Shown here piece after piece: positions 17,276 to 39,437 of a stretch of DNA of 64,000 bases (position 1 is the first letter of the stretch; every line of letters begins with the position of its first letter). The stretch is from Haloplanus aerogenes. GTDB lineage: Archaea > Halobacteriota > Halobacteria > Halobacteriales > Haloferacaceae. The DNA is taken from assembly GCF_003856835.1 (NCBI RefSeq), contig NZ_CP034145.1, forward strand, positions 372,001 through 436,000. The letters run 5' to 3'. Position numbers and translations under genes: made by a program. The notes under the pieces are model-generated. The model saw nothing but the letters and a program-made list of their open reading frames with translations, was not told the DNA's origin and ran no database searches.

Positions 17276-18069
17276 CCGAGCGGCTGGTAGACGGGGATCG
17301 GCGGGTGGGGGATGTGGATTCCGAGGAGCATCAGCCCGTGGGCCAGCGGCAGGTAGCCGAGGGCCACGAAGGCGACGCCGAGAGCCCGGTGGAGGTTCAC
17401 CCGACTCCCCGTTCCGAGTGACTGGAAGACGGTGCCGTAGGCGAGGAGCGTCGGGACGGTGCCGATGCCGAGGACGGCGAGCGACACCGCCCCGCGGATC
17501 GGCGAGCCGACGGCGAACGCGTAGAGGAAGGCGGGGTAGAGCAGTGGGCAGGGGAGGAATCCGTGGAGCGCGCCGAGCGCGATGATCCGGGGGCCGCCGA
17601 CCCACTCGTCGACGCGGGTCGTCACGGCGGCGTACACTCGCGAGAAGGCGTCACCGACGAACGGAATCCCGACGCCGTGACCGACGGTACCACGGAGGAG
17701 ATAGCCCGCGCCGGTGAACACGATGAAGCCGCCGGCGAGGATGCCCGTGACGCCCCGAACGTCGGTCGCGAGGGTGGCGACGGCGGCGACGTCGAAGAGT
17801 ACCGCCCCGAGCGCCCCCATGAGCGCTCCGATGGCGGCGTAACTGAGCGTTCGGCCGGCGTTGAACAGCAGGTGCTGGCGGACGTCGATGGGTCGAACAC
17901 GTTCGGCCCCGCTTCCAAGCCGGTCGGCGTACAGCGTCACGAGCGGACCACACATGCCGAGACAGTGCGCGCCGCCGAGGACGCCGATGGCGAGGAACAC
18001 GAGTAGCCCGGGATCGCTCGCTGCGGCGGTCGCAGCCGCCCCGGCGCCCGAACCGGAGAGCGGTATCAT
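17272..18069 (-). CDS. SafE/TauE-type membrane protein linked to oxidase copper assembly
   Basis: The 265-aa polytopic protein has about six helices. Two Cys-containing membrane motifs stand out: GGAHCLGMCGPL near residue 34 and LHGFLPCPLLYPAF near residue 170. These are hallmarks of the SafE/UreH-type branch (PF13386-like) that is commonly paired with FixI-type copper ATPases in cytochrome oxidase maturation. It overlaps the ATPase gene by 4 bp and follows the 59-aa small gene by 3 bp, forming a three-gene minus-strand unit. A role in copper handling is inferred from motif and context. Confidence 0.82.
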   Translation of the reverse strand: MIPLSGSGAGAAATAAASDPGLLVFLAIGVLGGAHCLGMCGPLVTLYADRLGSGAERVRPIDVRQHLLFNAGRTLSYAAIGALMGALGAVLFDVAAVATLATDVRGVTGILAGGFIVFTGAGYLLRGTVGHGVGIPFVGDAFSRVYAAVTTRVDEWVGGPRIIALGALHGFLPCPLLYPAFLYAFAVGSPIRGAVSLAVLGIGTVPTLLAYGTVFQSLGTGSRVNLHRALGVAFVALGYLPLAHGLMLLGIHIPHPPIPVYQPLG

Positions 18070-18072
18070 CGC

Positions 18073-18252
18073 TTACGCGGACGCGGCCTTGACGGTCGAC
18101 TCGCTGGGCAGGAACATCCCGTACACGCTCGCTGCGATGAGCACGACGTTGACCAGCGCCACCACCGCGATGAGCTCGATCGAGAACGCGTACACCGCGA
18201 CGGGAAGCAGTGCGAGCAACGCGACGATCGGTACTTGCCGGATGGAAACCAT
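18073..18252 (-). CDS. Small membrane protein of the ba3 oxidase locus, 59 aa
   Basis: The frame from ATG 18252 to TAA 18073 encodes a 59-aa protein with two helices (IVALLALLPVAVYAF and LIAVVALVNVVLIAASVYG) and a polar tail (LPSESTVKAASA). It is first in the minus-strand copper-ATPase unit, 174 bp from the divergent halocyanin gene. Short hydrophobic proteins in this place are often labelled cytochrome-ba3 oxidase subunits (Cba type) in haloarchaea; that label is from context and not from a motif. Confidence 0.65.
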   Translation of the reverse strand: MVSIRQVPIVALLALLPVAVYAFSIELIAVVALVNVVLIAASVYGMFLPSESTVKAASA

Positions 18253-18321
18253 ACCGATACTGTCGGGGAGTCTTCCTAATAACTGGCGCCGCCATTCCAG
18301 CGAATCGAAAATCGGTAGCTC

Positions 18322-18331
18322 GTATTATAAG
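18322..18331 (+). promoter_or_regulatory. TATA box of the ba3 oxidase operon
   Basis: GTATTATAAG is centred about 28 nt before the ATG of the 24-aa mini-ORF at 18355 and about 100 nt before the halocyanin start. Normal archaeal spacing puts the transcript start at or next to ATG 18355, so the mRNA would begin with the mini-ORF. Confidence 0.6.
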
Positions 18332-18354
18332 GACGAGGTGGCGAGGGGGAATGT

Positions 18355-18429
18355 ATGCTGGTAGACGACGGTAGCGAACGGCTCATCGTGACGTGGTACG
18401 GGAGCCACGTCGGGAGGCGACGGCGATGA
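18355..18429 (+). CDS. Leaderless 24-aa upstream mini-ORF coupled to the halocyanin gene
   Basis: ATG 18355 opens a 24-codon frame (begins MLVDDGSERL, ends GRRRR) whose stop TGA overlaps the halocyanin start as ATGA at 18426-18429. It lies at the expected transcription start. Two other mini-ORFs with the same arrangement occur at 24710 and 37797. It may serve to load ribosomes on a leaderless mRNA and deliver them to the main start. Chance cannot be excluded without ribosome profiling. Confidence 0.4.
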   Translation: MLVDDGSERLIVTWYGSHVGRRRR

Positions 18430-19775
18430 CACGGGACTCCGACGCCGGTGGAGCGCGGTCGCTCACCCGGCGCGCGGCGCTCCGGACGGCCGCGGGAACC
18501 GTGGCCGCTGGCATCGCCGCTGGTACTGCTAGTCCCGCCGCCGCGCAGGGCGGCGTCGACTACGGCGGCTGGTTCGGCGGCGGAACTGGCGGTGAGACAC
18601 AGAACTTCGACGGCACCGTCGATCGGACCGGTCAGGACTCGGTGACGGTCGAGGTCGGTGCCGAGGGCAACGGCGGCCCGTACGCCTTCGCGCCCGCCGC
18701 CGTCCGGGTCGATCCGGGCACGACGGTCACCTTCGAGTGGGTCTCCGACACTCACAACATCCTGATCGAGGAACAGCCGTCCGGCGCCGGCTGGGGCGGC
18801 GTCCAGAACATCGAGAACTCCGGGTTCTCCCACGAACACACCTTCGAGACCGAAGGAATCTACAAGTACTACTGCCAGCCTCACCTCGCGCTCGGGATGA
18901 AAGGCGCCATCGTCGTCGGTGGCGGCGGAAGTGGAGGCGGTGGCGGTGGCGGCGGTGGCGGGGGCGGGGGCGGCGGTGTCCCCGCCGAGTACGGCAACTG
19001 GTTCGGTAGCGAGACGGGTGCCGAGACGCAGAACTTCGACGGCACCGCCGACCAGACCGGGCAGGATTCGATTACCATCGACGTCGGTGCCGAAGGCAAC
19101 GGCGGTCCGTACGCCTTCGAACCGGCCGCCGTCCGGATCGATCCCGGGACGACGGTCACGTTCGAGTGGACGTCGGACACCCACAACATCCTGATCGAGG
19201 AACAGCCGTCCGACGCCGGCTGGAGCGGCCACGAGACGATCGAGAACAATGGTTTCACCTACGAACACACCTTCGAGACCGAAGGCGTCTACAAGTACTA
19301 CTGCCAGCCCCACCTCGCGCTCGGCATGAAAGGCGCCATCGTCGTCGGGTCGGCACCCTCCGGCGGTGGTGGCGGTGGTGGTGGCGACGGTGGTGGCGAA
19401 ACTCCCGCTCCCGGCGGTGAAGGCGGCGAGGGCGCCGGCGCGTCGCCCACCCTCTCGCTCGCCTTCCGCCTGATCGGCGGTGCCGTCGCGGCGGCACTCG
19501 CCCTCGTCCTCGGCGTCACTGCGTGGGTGTTCCTCAACTACGACCAGTTCACGACGGGCGGTGGAACGGCCGCCGAAGCCGCAGCGACCCCCGCCGAACG
19601 GACGCCGGAGGAGTCGGTGTTCGAGGCGGGCGTCGTCCGCGAACTCGGCCACGACGACTTCGACCCCTACGGGACAGCGACGCTCATCGTGATCTACGTC
19701 GCCATCATCTCCCTGATGTGGGTGTTCATGTACTTCGTCGAGTTCCTCGGCGGCGGACCGACGGTGATCGGCTAA
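18426..19775 (+). CDS. Tandem halocyanin-domain membrane protein of the ba3 oxidase
   Basis: The 449-aa protein has a Tat signal (LTRRAALRTAAGTVAAGIAA), two near-identical blue-copper domains (about residues 44-165 and 190-310), and two C-terminal helices (about 345-370 and 418-440). Each domain has the type 1 copper ligands: His in SDTHNILIEEQ, then Cys, His and Met in YYCQPHLALGMKG. The domains are joined by a long pure Gly/Ser linker, with a second Gly-rich linker before the membrane part. It should donate electrons to the CuA centre of the next gene product. The helical tail suggests it is a built-in oxidase subunit. ATG 18426 is chosen for the signal peptide and ATGA overlap. Confidence 0.88.
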   Translation: MTRDSDAGGARSLTRRAALRTAAGTVAAGIAAGTASPAAAQGGVDYGGWFGGGTGGETQNFDGTVDRTGQDSVTVEVGAEGNGGPYAFAPAAVRVDPGTTVTFEWVSDTHNILIEEQPSGAGWGGVQNIENSGFSHEHTFETEGIYKYYCQPHLALGMKGAIVVGGGGSGGGGGGGGGGGGGGGVPAEYGNWFGSETGAETQNFDGTADQTGQDSITIDVGAEGNGGPYAFEPAAVRIDPGTTVTFEWTSDTHNILIEEQPSDAGWSGHETIENNGFTYEHTFETEGVYKYYCQPHLALGMKGAIVVGSAPSGGGGGGGGDGGGETPAPGGEGGEGAGASPTLSLAFRLIGGAVAAALALVLGVTAWVFLNYDQFTTGGGTAAEAAATPAERTPEESVFEAGVVRELGHDDFDPYGTATLIVIYVAIISLMWVFMYFVEFLGGGPTVIG

Positions 19776-19790
19776 CAGGAGGTGTCAGGT

Positions 19791-20294
19791 ATGGAAATTC
19801 ATCGATTCGAGAAACTCTGGACTGCAGCAGCCTTGCTCCTCATCGTCGGGCTCATCGCGACGGTGACGTACGGTACGGTCGGCGCGGGCGTGAAGATGGT
19901 CGACGACTCCGGCGGCACGGTCGATGCCGGATCGCTCGGCGACACCGAATTCGGCGATCCGGGCGTGACCCAGGTGGGCGAGAACCAGTACGAGGTTCAC
20001 GTCGTCGCCCGCCAGTTCCTGTTCCAGCCGGGTACCACCTCGCCCATCCGCGTCCCGGCTAACTCCGAGGTGACCTTCTACATCACTAGCGCGGACGTGG
20101 TCCACGGCTTCGAGGTTGCGGGCACCAACATCAACGTCATGGTGATCCCCGGACAGGTCGCCGAGATCACGGTGCGGTTCGACGACCCCGGCCAGTACGG
20201 GATCGTCTGTCACGAGTACTGCGGCGCCGGCCACCACACCATGGCGGGCCAACTCGTGGTCGTCCCCGAGGACGAATACGAGGGAGGTAGCTAA
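19791..20294 (+). CDS. cbaB: ba3-type cytochrome oxidase subunit II (CuA)
   Basis: This 167-aa protein has one N-terminal helix and an exposed cupredoxin domain. The CuA ligands are visible: His in DVVHGFEV, then Cys-x3-Cys-x3-His-x2-Met in CHEYCGAGHHTM, with the conserved Glu. A strong Shine-Dalgarno (AGGAGGTG, 19777-19784) lies 7 nt before ATG 19791, so this start is preferred over GTG 19782. The single helix and short length fit ba3 enzymes. It accepts electrons from the halocyanin encoded 15 bp upstream. Confidence 0.9.
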   Translation: MEIHRFEKLWTAAALLLIVGLIATVTYGTVGAGVKMVDDSGGTVDAGSLGDTEFGDPGVTQVGENQYEVHVVARQFLFQPGTTSPIRVPANSEVTFYITSADVVHGFEVAGTNINVMVIPGQVAEITVRFDDPGQYGIVCHEYCGAGHHTMAGQLVVVPEDEYEGGS

Positions 20295-20295
20295 G

Positions 20296-21975
20296 ATGGC
20301 ATACGTCGACGATTTCCCGACCGACGCACGCATCGTTCGCTGGAATATGGCCGTCGCGTTCATCTCGCTCGGCATCGGTGGCCTGTTCGGCATGATTCAG
20401 GCGCTCCACCGCACGGGCATCTTCCGCGGGTTCGTGAGCTCCGCCGACTACTACACGGTGCTCACGGGCCACGGCGTTCTCCTCGCGCTCGTGTTCACGA
20501 CGTTCGCCCTCTCCGGGCTGTTCACGTGGGGCGTCACGCGGAGCCTCGACCGGCCGCTCCCGAGCCCCCGATTCACCATGGGCTGGTTCGCGCTGATGCT
20601 CCTCGGATCCATCATCGCGGCCGTCACCATCCTCGGTGGCCTCGTGCCGTCGATGCCGTTCAAGGCCGACGTGCTCTTCACGTTCTACGCGCCGATGCAG
20701 GCGCATCCGGCGTTCTACATCGGCCTCGTGTTCTTCGTCGTCGGCTCGTGGCTCGCCGGCGTCGACTGGTTCCGCGCGTACTGGGGCTGGCGGAAGGACA
20801 ACCCCGGCGAGCGCATCCCCCTGCAGACGTTCATGGTGCTGGTGACGATGCTGATGTGGTACATCTCGTCGATTGGCGTCGCGGTGGAGGTGCTCTTTTT
20901 CCTCCTGCCGTGGTCGCTCGGCCTGATCGAGGCGGTCGACCCGCTCCTGACGCGGACGCTGTTCTGGTACTTCGGCCACCCGGTCGTCTACTTCTGGCTC
21001 ATGCCGGCGTACTTCATCTGGTACACCGTGCTGCCGAAGCTCTCTGGTGGCCGGCTGTTCAGCGACCCGCTCGCCCGCGTCGTGTTCATCCTCTTCCTCC
21101 TGCTCTCGACGCCGGTCGGCTTCCACCACCAGTACGTCGACCCCGGCATCCCCGAGGGCTTCAAGTTCATCGCGATGACGAACACGATGTTCCTCCTCTT
21201 GCCCAGCCTGCTCACCGCCTTCACCGTCGTCGCCAGCATCGAACACGGCGGCAGACAGCGTGGCGGTGAGGGTCGACTCGGGTGGCTGCGGTCGCTCCCG
21301 TGGGACGAACCCGCCTTCGCTGGCTGTGTGCTCGCGGGGCTGATGTTCGCCGCCGGCGGCTTCTCCGGCATGATCAACGCCGGCATGAACATCAACTACC
21401 TCATCCACAACACGCTGTGGGTGCCGGGGCACTTCCACCTCACCGTCGGCACCGCGTCGGCGCTCACCTTCATGGCCGCCGGTTACTGGCTGTTCCCGCA
21501 GATCACGGGCAACCGCCTGCGCTTCCGCTCGCTCGCGACCATCCAGCCCTACGTCTGGTTCATCGGCATGACGCTCATGTCGAACGCGATGCACCGGGCC
21601 GGTCTGGCCGGCGTCCCGCGGCGGACTGCCGAACCCCAGTACGACGCCGTCTCGTTCCAGGGCGTCGTCGGCGGGATCAGCGAGATGCGCCTCCAGATCG
21701 CCATCGGTGGCACCATCCTCTTCATCGGATTGGTGCTCTACCTGATCGTCATCTTCGGGACGTGGTTCGGCGGCAGCGGCAACGACACCCTCCGGGTCAA
21801 CAGTTCGCTCCCGGCGCCGCTGTCCGGCCCCGAACACAGCCCGAAGATCCTCGACAATCTGAAGCTCTGGACGGCGGTCGCCATCGTGCTGATCGCGCTC
21901 GCGTACGGCCTGCCGCTGTGGGCGCTCGTCAGCGACGGCCTGCTGGCACCGGGCAGTCCGCCGATCCCGGTCTAA
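20296..21975 (+). CDS. cbaA: ba3-type cytochrome oxidase subunit I
   Basis: This 559-aa heme-copper oxidase catalytic subunit has about 13 helices. Ligands seen are the low-spin heme His in VLTGHGVLLALVF, the CuB His with cross-linked Tyr in WYFGHPVVYFWL, the His pair in FHHQYVDPG, and the two heme His in PGHFHLTVG. The E of the K-channel HPEVY motif found in the second oxidase here is Val (HPVVY), as in B-type (ba3) enzymes. It reduces O2 to water and pumps protons, with high O2 affinity expected for this class. It starts 2 bp after subunit II. Confidence 0.92.
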   Translation: MAYVDDFPTDARIVRWNMAVAFISLGIGGLFGMIQALHRTGIFRGFVSSADYYTVLTGHGVLLALVFTTFALSGLFTWGVTRSLDRPLPSPRFTMGWFALMLLGSIIAAVTILGGLVPSMPFKADVLFTFYAPMQAHPAFYIGLVFFVVGSWLAGVDWFRAYWGWRKDNPGERIPLQTFMVLVTMLMWYISSIGVAVEVLFFLLPWSLGLIEAVDPLLTRTLFWYFGHPVVYFWLMPAYFIWYTVLPKLSGGRLFSDPLARVVFILFLLLSTPVGFHHQYVDPGIPEGFKFIAMTNTMFLLLPSLLTAFTVVASIEHGGRQRGGEGRLGWLRSLPWDEPAFAGCVLAGLMFAAGGFSGMINAGMNINYLIHNTLWVPGHFHLTVGTASALTFMAAGYWLFPQITGNRLRFRSLATIQPYVWFIGMTLMSNAMHRAGLAGVPRRTAEPQYDAVSFQGVVGGISEMRLQIAIGGTILFIGLVLYLIVIFGTWFGGSGNDTLRVNSSLPAPLSGPEHSPKILDNLKLWTAVAIVLIALAYGLPLWALVSDGLLAPGSPPIPV

Positions 21976-23411: not shown

Positions 23412-24275
23412 TCAGTACCGCGAGGGCATGTACGCCATGCCGAGCAGCATGATGGCCGTGGCGAAACTCACGATGGAGACGCCCCAGAGGCCGTTGACGT
23501 GGTCGTGGTACGTGTCGATCTCCTCGGTCTGTTCCTGGTAGACGCCGTAGTCGCTCTCGAGGACGAGCGTGCTGTTGTCGGGGAAGTACGCGAAGTACTG
23601 CTGGCCGTTCACGGTGACGTTCGCTTCGTTACCCACGTCGACCGTGTTGGTCTTCGGGGCCGTCCACGCGAGGGTCGCGCCGTCGGTCGTCACGTCGGCG
23701 ACGGTCGTCGTGTTCCCTTGGAACTGGAGACTCTCGCCTTCCTGATACTGTGTCGAGGCCGGCGTCGGGAAGTATTCGCTCGCCGGCGTCAGCGTCCGAC
23801 TGCCGTTCGACTCGCGGACGACGTACTCCGTGCCGTTCAGCGTGACCGTCTCGTCGTTGACGGCCGGATCGTCCTGGAGGATGGCGGTCCGGTTGATCTC
23901 CTCGACCAGCCGGAACGACGAGGGATCGTCGCCCTCGCCGACCATGACGCGGTACGTCTCGTCTTGATACGTGACGGTACTGTTGTGATCCCACGTCTGC
24001 GTGTAGCGGGCGGAGTCGTTGGTCCACGTGAGCTGTCCGGACCGCGTGACGGTCGCGCCGCCACCGTGCCCCCCACCACCGCTGGACACTTCGGCCGAAA
24101 TCGCCGAGACCGTGTACTGCCGATTCTCGACCGAGAACTGGTCGCCTTCGGAGAGCCTGTGATCCGGATTCTCGAATCCGACCGTCGGCGCAGTGGCCGT
24201 CGCGATCACCGAGTACGACGCCGCGCCGAGCACGATGAAGAACGCGACGTAGATGGCCGCAGCGCGTCGTTGCAT
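23412..24275 (-). CDS. Surface membrane protein with two terminal helices, 287 aa
   Basis: The architecture is an N-terminal helix (AAIYVAFFIVLGAASYSVIA), about 235 residues of exposed beta-rich sequence with many N-glycosylation sequons (NDS, NHS, NRT, NGT, NGS, NTT, NVT, NST), and a C-terminal helix (GLWGVSIVSFATAIMLLGMAY). A CGTTATACG element lies about 29 nt before ATG 24275, supporting a leaderless start. It resembles conserved haloarchaeal membrane proteins often near oxidase genes, but no enzymatic motif is visible. Confidence 0.65.
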   Translation of the reverse strand: MQRRAAAIYVAFFIVLGAASYSVIATATAPTVGFENPDHRLSEGDQFSVENRQYTVSAISAEVSSGGGGHGGGATVTRSGQLTWTNDSARYTQTWDHNSTVTYQDETYRVMVGEGDDPSSFRLVEEINRTAILQDDPAVNDETVTLNGTEYVVRESNGSRTLTPASEYFPTPASTQYQEGESLQFQGNTTTVADVTTDGATLAWTAPKTNTVDVGNEANVTVNGQQYFAYFPDNSTLVLESDYGVYQEQTEEIDTYHDHVNGLWGVSIVSFATAIMLLGMAYMPSRY

Positions 24276-24709: not shown

Positions 24710-24763
24710 ATGACACGGTCGGTACTGACTCACCACGGCTTGCGGCGACTCGCACGCGGATGA
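24710..24763 (+). CDS. Leaderless 17-aa upstream mini-ORF coupled to the sugar dehydrogenase gene
   Basis: ATG 24710 opens MTRSVLTHHGLRRLARG and ends in TGA 24761-24763, overlapping the next start as ATGA. A TATA-like element is centred about 30 nt upstream of ATG 24710, so the transcript probably begins at the mini-ORF. This matches the layouts at 18355 and 37797. It is not an extension of the downstream protein, because it is in another frame and the Tat signal lies in the main ORF. Confidence 0.4.
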   Translation: MTRSVLTHHGLRRLARG

Positions 24764-37796: not shown

Positions 37797-37859
37797 ATGA
37801 TTTGGACGATCACTGCCGACGCATCGCTTTCGACCGCTTCGACCGGGGTGGTGGCCTGA
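37797..37859 (+). CDS. Leaderless 20-aa upstream mini-ORF coupled to doxX
   Basis: ATG 37797 encodes MIWTITADASLSTASTGVVA and ends at TGA 37857-37859, whose last base is the first base of the doxX ATG (TGATG). A TATA-like element is positioned for a transcript starting at this ATG. It is the third mini-ORF of this layout in the window (see 18355 and 24710). Confidence 0.4.
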   Translation: MIWTITADASLSTASTGVVA

Positions 37860-38275
37860 TGGCCTTCGACACCGCCGGCGCGGGTGTCGTTTTCCTGCTC
37901 GCGCGCGCCCTCTTCGGCGTCGTCTTCGCCGTCACCGGCCTGAACCACTTCCGCAACGCGGAGGGGATGATCGGCTACGCCCAGTCGAAGGGCATCCCTG
38001 CGGCGTCGCTCGGGGTTCCCTTCTCCGGCGGGATGCTGATCGCCGGCGGTCTGGGCATCCTCCTCGGCGTCTATCCCACGATCGCCGCCGGGGCGATCGC
38101 CGTCTTCCTCGTCGCCGCGACGCCGACGATGCACGACTTCTGGAACGCACCCGAAGAGCAGAAGCAGGGCGAATTCAACAACTTCCTGAAGAATGTCGCG
38201 CTCCTCGGCGGCGCGCTCGCGTTCCTCGTGTTCGCGAGCGAGTCGTGGCCGCTGGCGGCTAACGTCGGCCTGTAA
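37859..38275 (+). CDS. DoxX family membrane protein
   Basis: This 138-aa protein has four helices. The family features are LLARALFGVVFAVTGLNHF at the N-terminus, GYAQSKGIPAASLGVPFSGG and the later TMHDFWNAPEEQKQGEFNNF loop. DoxX proteins are membrane redox proteins linked to quinone or thiol metabolism; the precise role is uncertain. ATG 37859 is favoured by the stop-start overlap with the mini-ORF. A second DoxX-like gene follows 58 bp downstream. Confidence 0.82.
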   Translation: MAFDTAGAGVVFLLARALFGVVFAVTGLNHFRNAEGMIGYAQSKGIPAASLGVPFSGGMLIAGGLGILLGVYPTIAAGAIAVFLVAATPTMHDFWNAPEEQKQGEFNNFLKNVALLGGALAFLVFASESWPLAANVGL

Positions 38276-38310: not shown

Positions 38311-38333
38311 CATCGTCGCCCCAGTGTCATGCT

Positions 38334-39437
38334 ATGCACAGCGACTGGTCGCGTCGTCTCGTCATCGGGTCGCTCGTGGGCGTCGCTCTCGCCACCCGTC
38401 CGGTGGCCGCACACGTCGACTACGTGACCGAGGAGGGAGAATCGGGCCCAGGTGTCGTCGAGTTCCTCTCGGCTGTCCTCTCCGATCCGCTCAACGTTGC
38501 CGTCCTCGTCGCCGGCGGCGTGGGGGTGACTATCGCGACCCTCGGCTGGCTTCGCTACGGCGACCACATCGCGGACGTGACGGTGATCCGGCGCACACTC
38601 CGGTCGTACCAGCCGTATCTCGGCTGGCTCCTGCGACTCGCGACCGGGCTTCCCCTCATGGGCGCCGGCTTCGGCGGCTACTTCTTCTCCCCTGCCGTCG
38701 GCGTCGAGGCGCGACTCGTCCAGATCACCATCGCCTTCCTCCTCCTGTTCGGACTGGCGACGCGACTGGCGGCGCTGGCCGGCCTCCTCACCTACCTCGT
38801 CGGCCTCGCGACCCACTTCCCGACGCTCCTGCTCAGTTCGGAGTATCTCGCCGGCTTCCTCGGCATCCTCGTCGTCGGCCCCGGGCAACCGAGCGCCGAC
38901 CTCCTCCTCCGGCGACTGATCGTCACCGACGGCACGATCATGAGCCGGTTCCGCGACGTGACGACGGTGTCGGACGTGTTGTCCGGATTCGGCGTCGAGA
39001 AATCCGTCGCGCCCCTCCTCATTCGGCTCTTTCTCGGCTTCAACTTCGCCTACCTCGGCGTGACCGAGAAGTGGCTTGATCCCGGCCGCGCCCTCCAGGT
39101 GGTCGCGAAGTACGATCTCACCGCAGTCGCCCCCCTCTCCCCGGAGATGTGGGTGTTCGCGGCCGGCCTCGGCGAACTCGTCGTCGGCCTCCTGATCCTG
39201 ACGGGCACCTTCACCCGGAGCGCGGCCGGCGCCGGCTTCGTCATCCTCACGACGACCCTCTTCGGTCTCCCCGACGACCCCGTTCTCGCCCACGTCACGC
39301 TGTTCGGCCTCACCTCCGCGCTGTTGATCACCGGGAGCGGCCCTCTCGCTCTCGACCGAACCGTGATCCCCACGCTCCGCGCCCGCATCGGCACCGCTCC
39401 CTCCCACGCCGACGACCCGGCCACGCCGGCGGACTGA
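38334..39437 (+). CDS. DoxX/DoxD-like polytopic membrane protein, 367 aa
   Basis: The protein has an N-terminal signal-like segment (RRLVIGSLVGVALATRPVAA), then about eight helices in two DoxX-like halves. The first half has LRSYQPYLGWLLRLATGLPL. The second has LLIRLFLGFNFAYLGVTEKW and EMWVFAAGLGELVVGLLILTG, which match DoxX helices. A conserved His-Phe pair occurs in LATHFPTLLL. It is probably a membrane redox protein exchanging electrons with quinones; evidence is topology and weak similarity only. Confidence 0.7.
   Translation: MHSDWSRRLVIGSLVGVALATRPVAAHVDYVTEEGESGPGVVEFLSAVLSDPLNVAVLVAGGVGVTIATLGWLRYGDHIADVTVIRRTLRSYQPYLGWLLRLATGLPLMGAGFGGYFFSPAVGVEARLVQITIAFLLLFGLATRLAALAGLLTYLVGLATHFPTLLLSSEYLAGFLGILVVGPGQPSADLLLRRLIVTDGTIMSRFRDVTTVSDVLSGFGVEKSVAPLLIRLFLGFNFAYLGVTEKWLDPGRALQVVAKYDLTAVAPLSPEMWVFAAGLGELVVGLLILTGTFTRSAAGAGFVILTTTLFGLPDDPVLAHVTLFGLTSALLITGSGPLALDRTVIPTLRARIGTAPSHADDPATPAD

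Follow-up and report, generated by a model that had tools for sequence, protein, structure and literature searches.

Organization of the cba/halocyanin locus

The window, a 64,000-nt stretch of the Haloplanus aerogenes genome (contig NZ_CP034145.1, positions 372,001 to 436,000 of the forward strand), carries a terminal oxidase operon headed by a halocyanin gene (Table 1). The C-terminus of the halocyanin gene product matches a short gene that in other genera immediately precedes subunit II, i.e., CbaD. A fusion of halocyanin and cbaD has already been noted for Halobacterium OE_4073R (PMC8305020).

The operon is preceded by a short open reading frame. Its ATG at 18355 is placed 25–32 nt downstream of the TATA box TATTATAA, and its TGA stop occupies positions 18427–18429, so that ATGA is common to this stop and to the halocyanin-CbaD start at 18426. 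The initial annotation had described a 24-codon ORF with an upstream TATA box and an ATGA overlap with the halocyanin start, and the sequence confirms each of these elements. The stop-start spacing of −4 is inside the range of −8 to +10 nt for haloarchaeal termination-reinitiation (TeRe). If the transcript starts at the mini-ORF ATG, the leader to the main ATG would be 71 nt long. The window species also has an ATG at 18351, whose 7-codon ORF terminates 51 nt before the main gene, and has C rather than G at +4. Upstream of the TATA box is a TTCC...GAAAA-type element (18294–18314), and similar elements are found in Haloarcula and Halolamina loci. This element may be a shared regulator site or a BRE region.

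Table 1. Features of the cba/halocyanin locus and of two further sites in the window
Feature	Coordinates	Strand	Description
Conserved upstream element ATTCCAGCGAATCGAAAATCG	18294..18314	.	Present in the window, L054, L055, L060 and L062
TATA box TATTATAA	18323..18330	+	From sequence; at the A/T peak of 25 loci from several genera
Competing ATG, 7-codon ORF	18351..18374	+	MYAGRRR then stop; window species only, not in the other nine Haloplanus loci
Predicted leaderless mini-ORF	18355..18429	+	24 codons, peptide MLVDDGSERLIVTWYGSHVGRRRR then stop; weak peptide constraint
7-bp hairpin	18390..18411	+	GACGTGG-N8-CCACGTC, directly before the Shine-Dalgarno motif; 5/5 Haloplanus species of one clade
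Shine-Dalgarno (SD) motif GGGAGG	18412..18417	+	8 nt upstream of the main ATG
ATGA stop-start junction	18426..18429	+	From sequence; conserved
Halocyanin-CbaD (main gene)	18426..19775	+	Tat signal, two halocyanin (PF00127) domains, C-terminal CbaD-like segment
Terminal oxidase subunit II	19782..20294	+	PF00116
Terminal oxidase subunit I	20296..21975	+	PF00115
ORF before GSDH-family gene (third cited site)	24710..24763	+	17 codons; lineage-specific and derived, from orthologues
Mini-ORF before doxX (second instance)	37797..37859	+	20 codons, TGATG junction; 11/11 Haloplanus, 17–23 codons
doxX	37859..38275	+	PF07681

Conservation of the mini-ORF and its junction

The mini-ORF ATG is kept in all ten Haloplanus genomes. 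Nine of the ten mini-ORFs end in a −4 ATGA overlap, with lengths of 24 (five genomes), 48 (two), 63 and 64 codons; direct translation confirmed the ATGA ending of the two longest (L057 and L058). In the tenth genome, L059 (reverse-complement orientation, about 2398–2589), the mini-ORF continues in frame into the halocyanin gene, joined to its Tat signal. The stop-start layout is also found, with unrelated peptides, in Salinigranum (4/4), in the Haloarcula/Halomicroarcula group (10/10), in a Haloarculaceae bin, in Halorhabdus and in Halobacterium bonnevillei. Orthologous upstream regions lacking an overlapping short frame had been named as an outcome that would speak against the proposal; we aligned these regions and found the frame.

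Across the 29 loci with a TATA-ATG arrangement, the ATG–ATG distance is 1 modulo 3 in 28, and 27 were scored as overlapping versus 14.9 expected when phase and main-start context are kept constant, although these loci are not independent events because the species are related. L097 is the 28th overlapping locus, through a second in-frame GTG. Its stop is 43 nt beyond the GTG first taken as the start, and a −4 overlap results with the second GTG, 39 nt downstream. Overlaps are −4 or −1 in most loci, and SD motifs of the GGAGG type or GGTG precede most coupled starts. The overlaps in Haloarcula are 10 nt, outside the −8 to +10 range deemed predictive of TeRe (PMC10666635), and L093 is without a clear TATA box.

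Other instances and controls

The initial annotation had reported the same layout at two other sites. Before doxX, the mini-ORF is present and conserved across Haloplanus, with the difference that its junction is TGATG and not ATGA. The site at 24710 proved not to be the same thing. Its orthologues in L175 and L176 start the main gene in frame at GTGACACG, which is homologous to the ATGACACGG of the window (a leaderless GTG). That frame is lost in the window, where the restart is at the ATGA at 24760; the window site is therefore a frame-shifted derivative. With orthologues in frame and the overlap not conserved, we rejected 24710 as a third instance. By an apparent frame shift at 24710–24763, a leaderless start of the main gene became a mini-ORF followed by an ATGA restart, a possible birth event. 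Together with the fusion in L059, this site suggests that an in-frame extension can turn into a coupled mini-ORF and vice versa.

Further TATA-proximal candidates from the genome sample were followed across Haloplanus. The overlap is kept before genes for EamA (12/12), lactate permease (9/10), CNNM (7/8) and T2SSF (8/10). In seven further genera, the EamA overlap is found in 18/18 orthologues, versus 3.3 expected by shuffling. The AIM24 candidate, kept in only 1/10, was rejected as not conserved and is the one failure among the seven TATA-proximal candidates tested. As controls, we used overlapping ORFs of the window that have no TATA box (24647/24710, taken as one locus, 29582, 58821, 46245 and 5179), and none of the five is conserved. 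Every conserved case stands before a gene for a membrane or exported protein. A bias towards membrane proteins is only suggestive, since just 7 of the 16 strict candidates have a membrane segment versus 30% of genes; these 16 came from a 1.26-Mb genome sample and some are likely false.

Three other sites were noted during this survey. At L221:15614–15661, a TATA-proximal mini-ORF with a 10-nt overlap is found upstream of an AmiS/UreI gene. A TATA-proximal ORF at 38329–38427 lies within the next membrane-protein gene and is probably false, because starting at the in-frame ATG at 38334 yields a good signal peptide. Finally, ARAGORN called a tRNA-Glu(ctc) at 23867–23944 on the plus strand, opposite a predicted minus-strand gene (23412–24275), and either the tRNA or the gene may be a false call.

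Chance level in a single genome

When Haloplanus upstream regions are dinucleotide-shuffled, about 0.21 of them yield an overlapping mini-ORF. Taken alone, the window mini-ORF is not significant beyond chance, and it is conservation that makes the case. Overlap enrichment at TATA-proximal out-of-frame ATGs in 464 kb of genome was likewise not significant (7/28 versus 48/294 at other ATGs). It could be argued that an ATG close to a TATA box stays open into the main start by coincidence, with the main gene using its own SD motif from a 71-nt leader; the shuffling probability of about 0.2 for one Haloplanus locus, the null enrichment and the presence of GGGAGG all fit this. Such a coincidence is nevertheless very unlikely given the overlap in 28 of 29 loci, its conservation before EamA (18/18) and doxX (11/11), the 0/5 conservation of the TATA-less controls and the absence of de novo SD action in H. 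volcanii (PMC6728339). One genome does not decide the matter, and we rejected chance on conservation across species.

Promoter position

The promoter appears to be set for the mini-ORF. Across 25 loci from several genera, A/T content is 92–96% at −30 to −27 of the mini-ORF ATG, which predicts a 5′ UTR of about 0–5 nt. Genera that have no mini-ORF (Halobaculum, Halolamina, L073 and Haloglomus) show T/A-rich boxes at about the same distance from the main ATG. The positions of the boxes in loci with and without a mini-ORF therefore indicate that the leaderless position goes to the main gene in some loci and to the mini-ORF in others. Alternative promoters would be another arrangement, with one transcript carrying the mini-ORF and another, leaderless, starting at the main ATG. 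Additional start sites of that kind were seen in 7 of 16 uORF cases with long 5′-UTRs in H. volcanii (PMC4983044). However, loci bearing a mini-ORF have no A/T-rich peak at −36 to −24 of the main ATG, and we regard a second transcript as highly improbable.

Constraint on peptide, codons and RNA structure

Selection on the mini-ORF peptide is weak at most. Variable sites are spread over the three codon positions as 10/11/10, and pN/pS, from few sites, is 0.86 over the 24 codons in five species, 0.75 over codons 2–12 in ten species and 0.56 among the four closest species. The N-terminal half of the peptide is similar across Haloplanus (MVxxDGxER), and no peptide or sensor-codon run shared between genera was found. 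Given that all ten Haloplanus genomes conserve the start and the first residues, and given the value of 0.56 among the closest relatives, the mini-ORF might encode a functional microprotein for which coupling is incidental. This is hardly likely, as pN/pS is near neutral once more species are included, no sequence is shared with other genera and in L059 the mini-ORF is an in-frame part of the main protein.

The hairpin directly ahead of the SD motif has one pair altered on both sides, in L060, but this single double-sided change is equalled by 97 of 500 shuffles; the hairpin is not significant alone and is missing from most other genera. The overall folding z-score is 0.10, and Rfam gave no match above the gathering score at 18000–18700. 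With the hairpin specific to one clade, we rejected a conserved RNA structure.

The initial annotation had also considered a sensor of peptide or codon content. The mini-ORF would then act as an attenuator, with ribosome progress through it, by way of codon content or nascent peptide, regulating the oxidase operon. The similar N-terminal halves of the Haloplanus peptides and the hairpin ahead of the SD motif would be in keeping with such regulation. The comparisons do not support it, because no peptide or codon run is common to genera and pN/pS within Haloplanus is near neutral (0.75–0.86, with variable sites at 10/11/10 by codon position). Moreover, mini-ORF lengths vary from 24 to 64 codons inside one genus and an identical layout stands ahead of unrelated genes. 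We consider regulation of this kind unlikely, if slightly less so than the other alternatives weighed here, and set both sensor and microprotein aside as unsupported by pN/pS or between-genus comparison. Most likely the mini-ORF serves as a landing pad for ribosomes, and not as a protein or sensor.

Proposed mechanism

The layout is conserved, the TATA box is placed for the mini-ORF ATG and the peptide is weakly constrained. We propose, with a probability of about 0.8, that the mini-ORF is a ribosome-delivery leader with TeRe coupling to halocyanin-CbaD, where the 5′ end, translation and coupling would follow published H. volcanii biology. The cba/halocyanin mRNA would begin at or a few nucleotides from the ATG at 18355, and its 5′-terminal AUG would be loaded by ribosomes through the leaderless route. 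Ribosomes would translate the disposable 24-codon mini-ORF, terminate at the TGA and reinitiate at the overlapping ATG, aided by the GGGAGG 8 nt upstream. That a leaderless mini-ORF feeds an internal start, as first put forward from the window sequence, appears well supported by comparison: the overlap persists in 28 of 29 loci despite changing length and peptide, SD motifs are found at most junctions and the TATA box is set for the mini-ORF ATG.

TeRe from a leaderless mini-ORF is the best reading because, in Haloferax, SD motifs fail to bring in ribosomes de novo. In H. volcanii, overlapping gene pairs are strictly coupled and SD motifs, non-functional de novo, often accompany the second start (PMC6728339). 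Once spacing reaches about 20 nt coupling disappears, with values near zero at 22–23 nt (PMC10666635). An SD motif inert de novo and strict coupling of overlapping pairs would together mean that the mini-ORF supplies ribosomes to an otherwise unreachable gene. Points against coupling are the earlier ATG at 18351 and the C at +4, both in the window species alone, the AIM24 candidate, the TATA region of L093, the 10-nt Haloarcula overlaps and the null enrichment in a single genome.

Relation to known systems

The initial annotation had suggested a distinct translation device, but this architecture has already been described in mycobacteria, where leaderless small ORFs are coupled by RTGA and their peptides are unconserved (Shell et al. 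2015, PMC4633059). In both cases an unannotated small ORF, at the 5′ end of the transcript in mycobacteria and predicted to be so here, has its stop merged with the downstream start, and architecture is kept while peptide sequence is not. The mycobacterial work concerned bacteria and used RNA-seq and ribosome profiling, whereas here the hosts are archaea and the promoter is predicted from the TATA box; the haloarchaeal layout was also tracked across genera and uses TGATG and TAGTG junctions too. Because mycobacteria have the same device, the haloarchaeal mini-ORF would be the archaeal form of an already known type.

Other systems share parts of this arrangement. TeRe pairs of H. volcanii (PMC6728339, PMC10666635) have the same −4/−1 nt overlaps, SD motif before the second start and haloarchaeal host, but both partners are real protein genes, whereas the first cistron here has 15–64 codons, is weakly constrained and sits at the promoter. 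The H. volcanii uORFs (PMC4983044) are also small ORFs upstream of normal haloarchaeal genes; that survey took only leaders of 150–250 nt, and most coupled mini-ORFs here are shorter and outside its range. In E. coli, a 5′-terminal AUG ahead of an SD-led gene can affect expression (PMC4965119), although coupling is optional there because the E. coli SD motif works on its own. A leaderless promoter also drives a bicistronic cassette in Corynebacterium (PMC10367133), an engineered design where the haloarchaeal case is natural. Short ORFs have also been proposed, in a review, to deliver ribosomes (PMC12548453). We found no description of a conserved haloarchaeal class of this kind in the open-access literature, although an earlier report may exist.

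Implications for haloarchaeal translation

There is, in our estimation, an even chance that haloarchaea have a standing class of genes, perhaps tens per genome and many of them membrane or exported, that are translated only via a leaderless, disposable mini-ORF. Selection would keep the start, frame and junction and largely ignore the peptide. The mini-ORF would thus stand in for the recruitment by SD motifs that these organisms lack, and it may set the kinetics of expression or membrane targeting. Archaea and mycobacteria, both rich in leaderless mRNAs, would then show the same solution. Unannotated ORFs would be added to haloarchaeal genomes, and some gene starts would be corrected. A conserved, leaderless, coupled mini-ORF would offer a concrete, testable answer to how leadered haloarchaeal genes get ribosomes.
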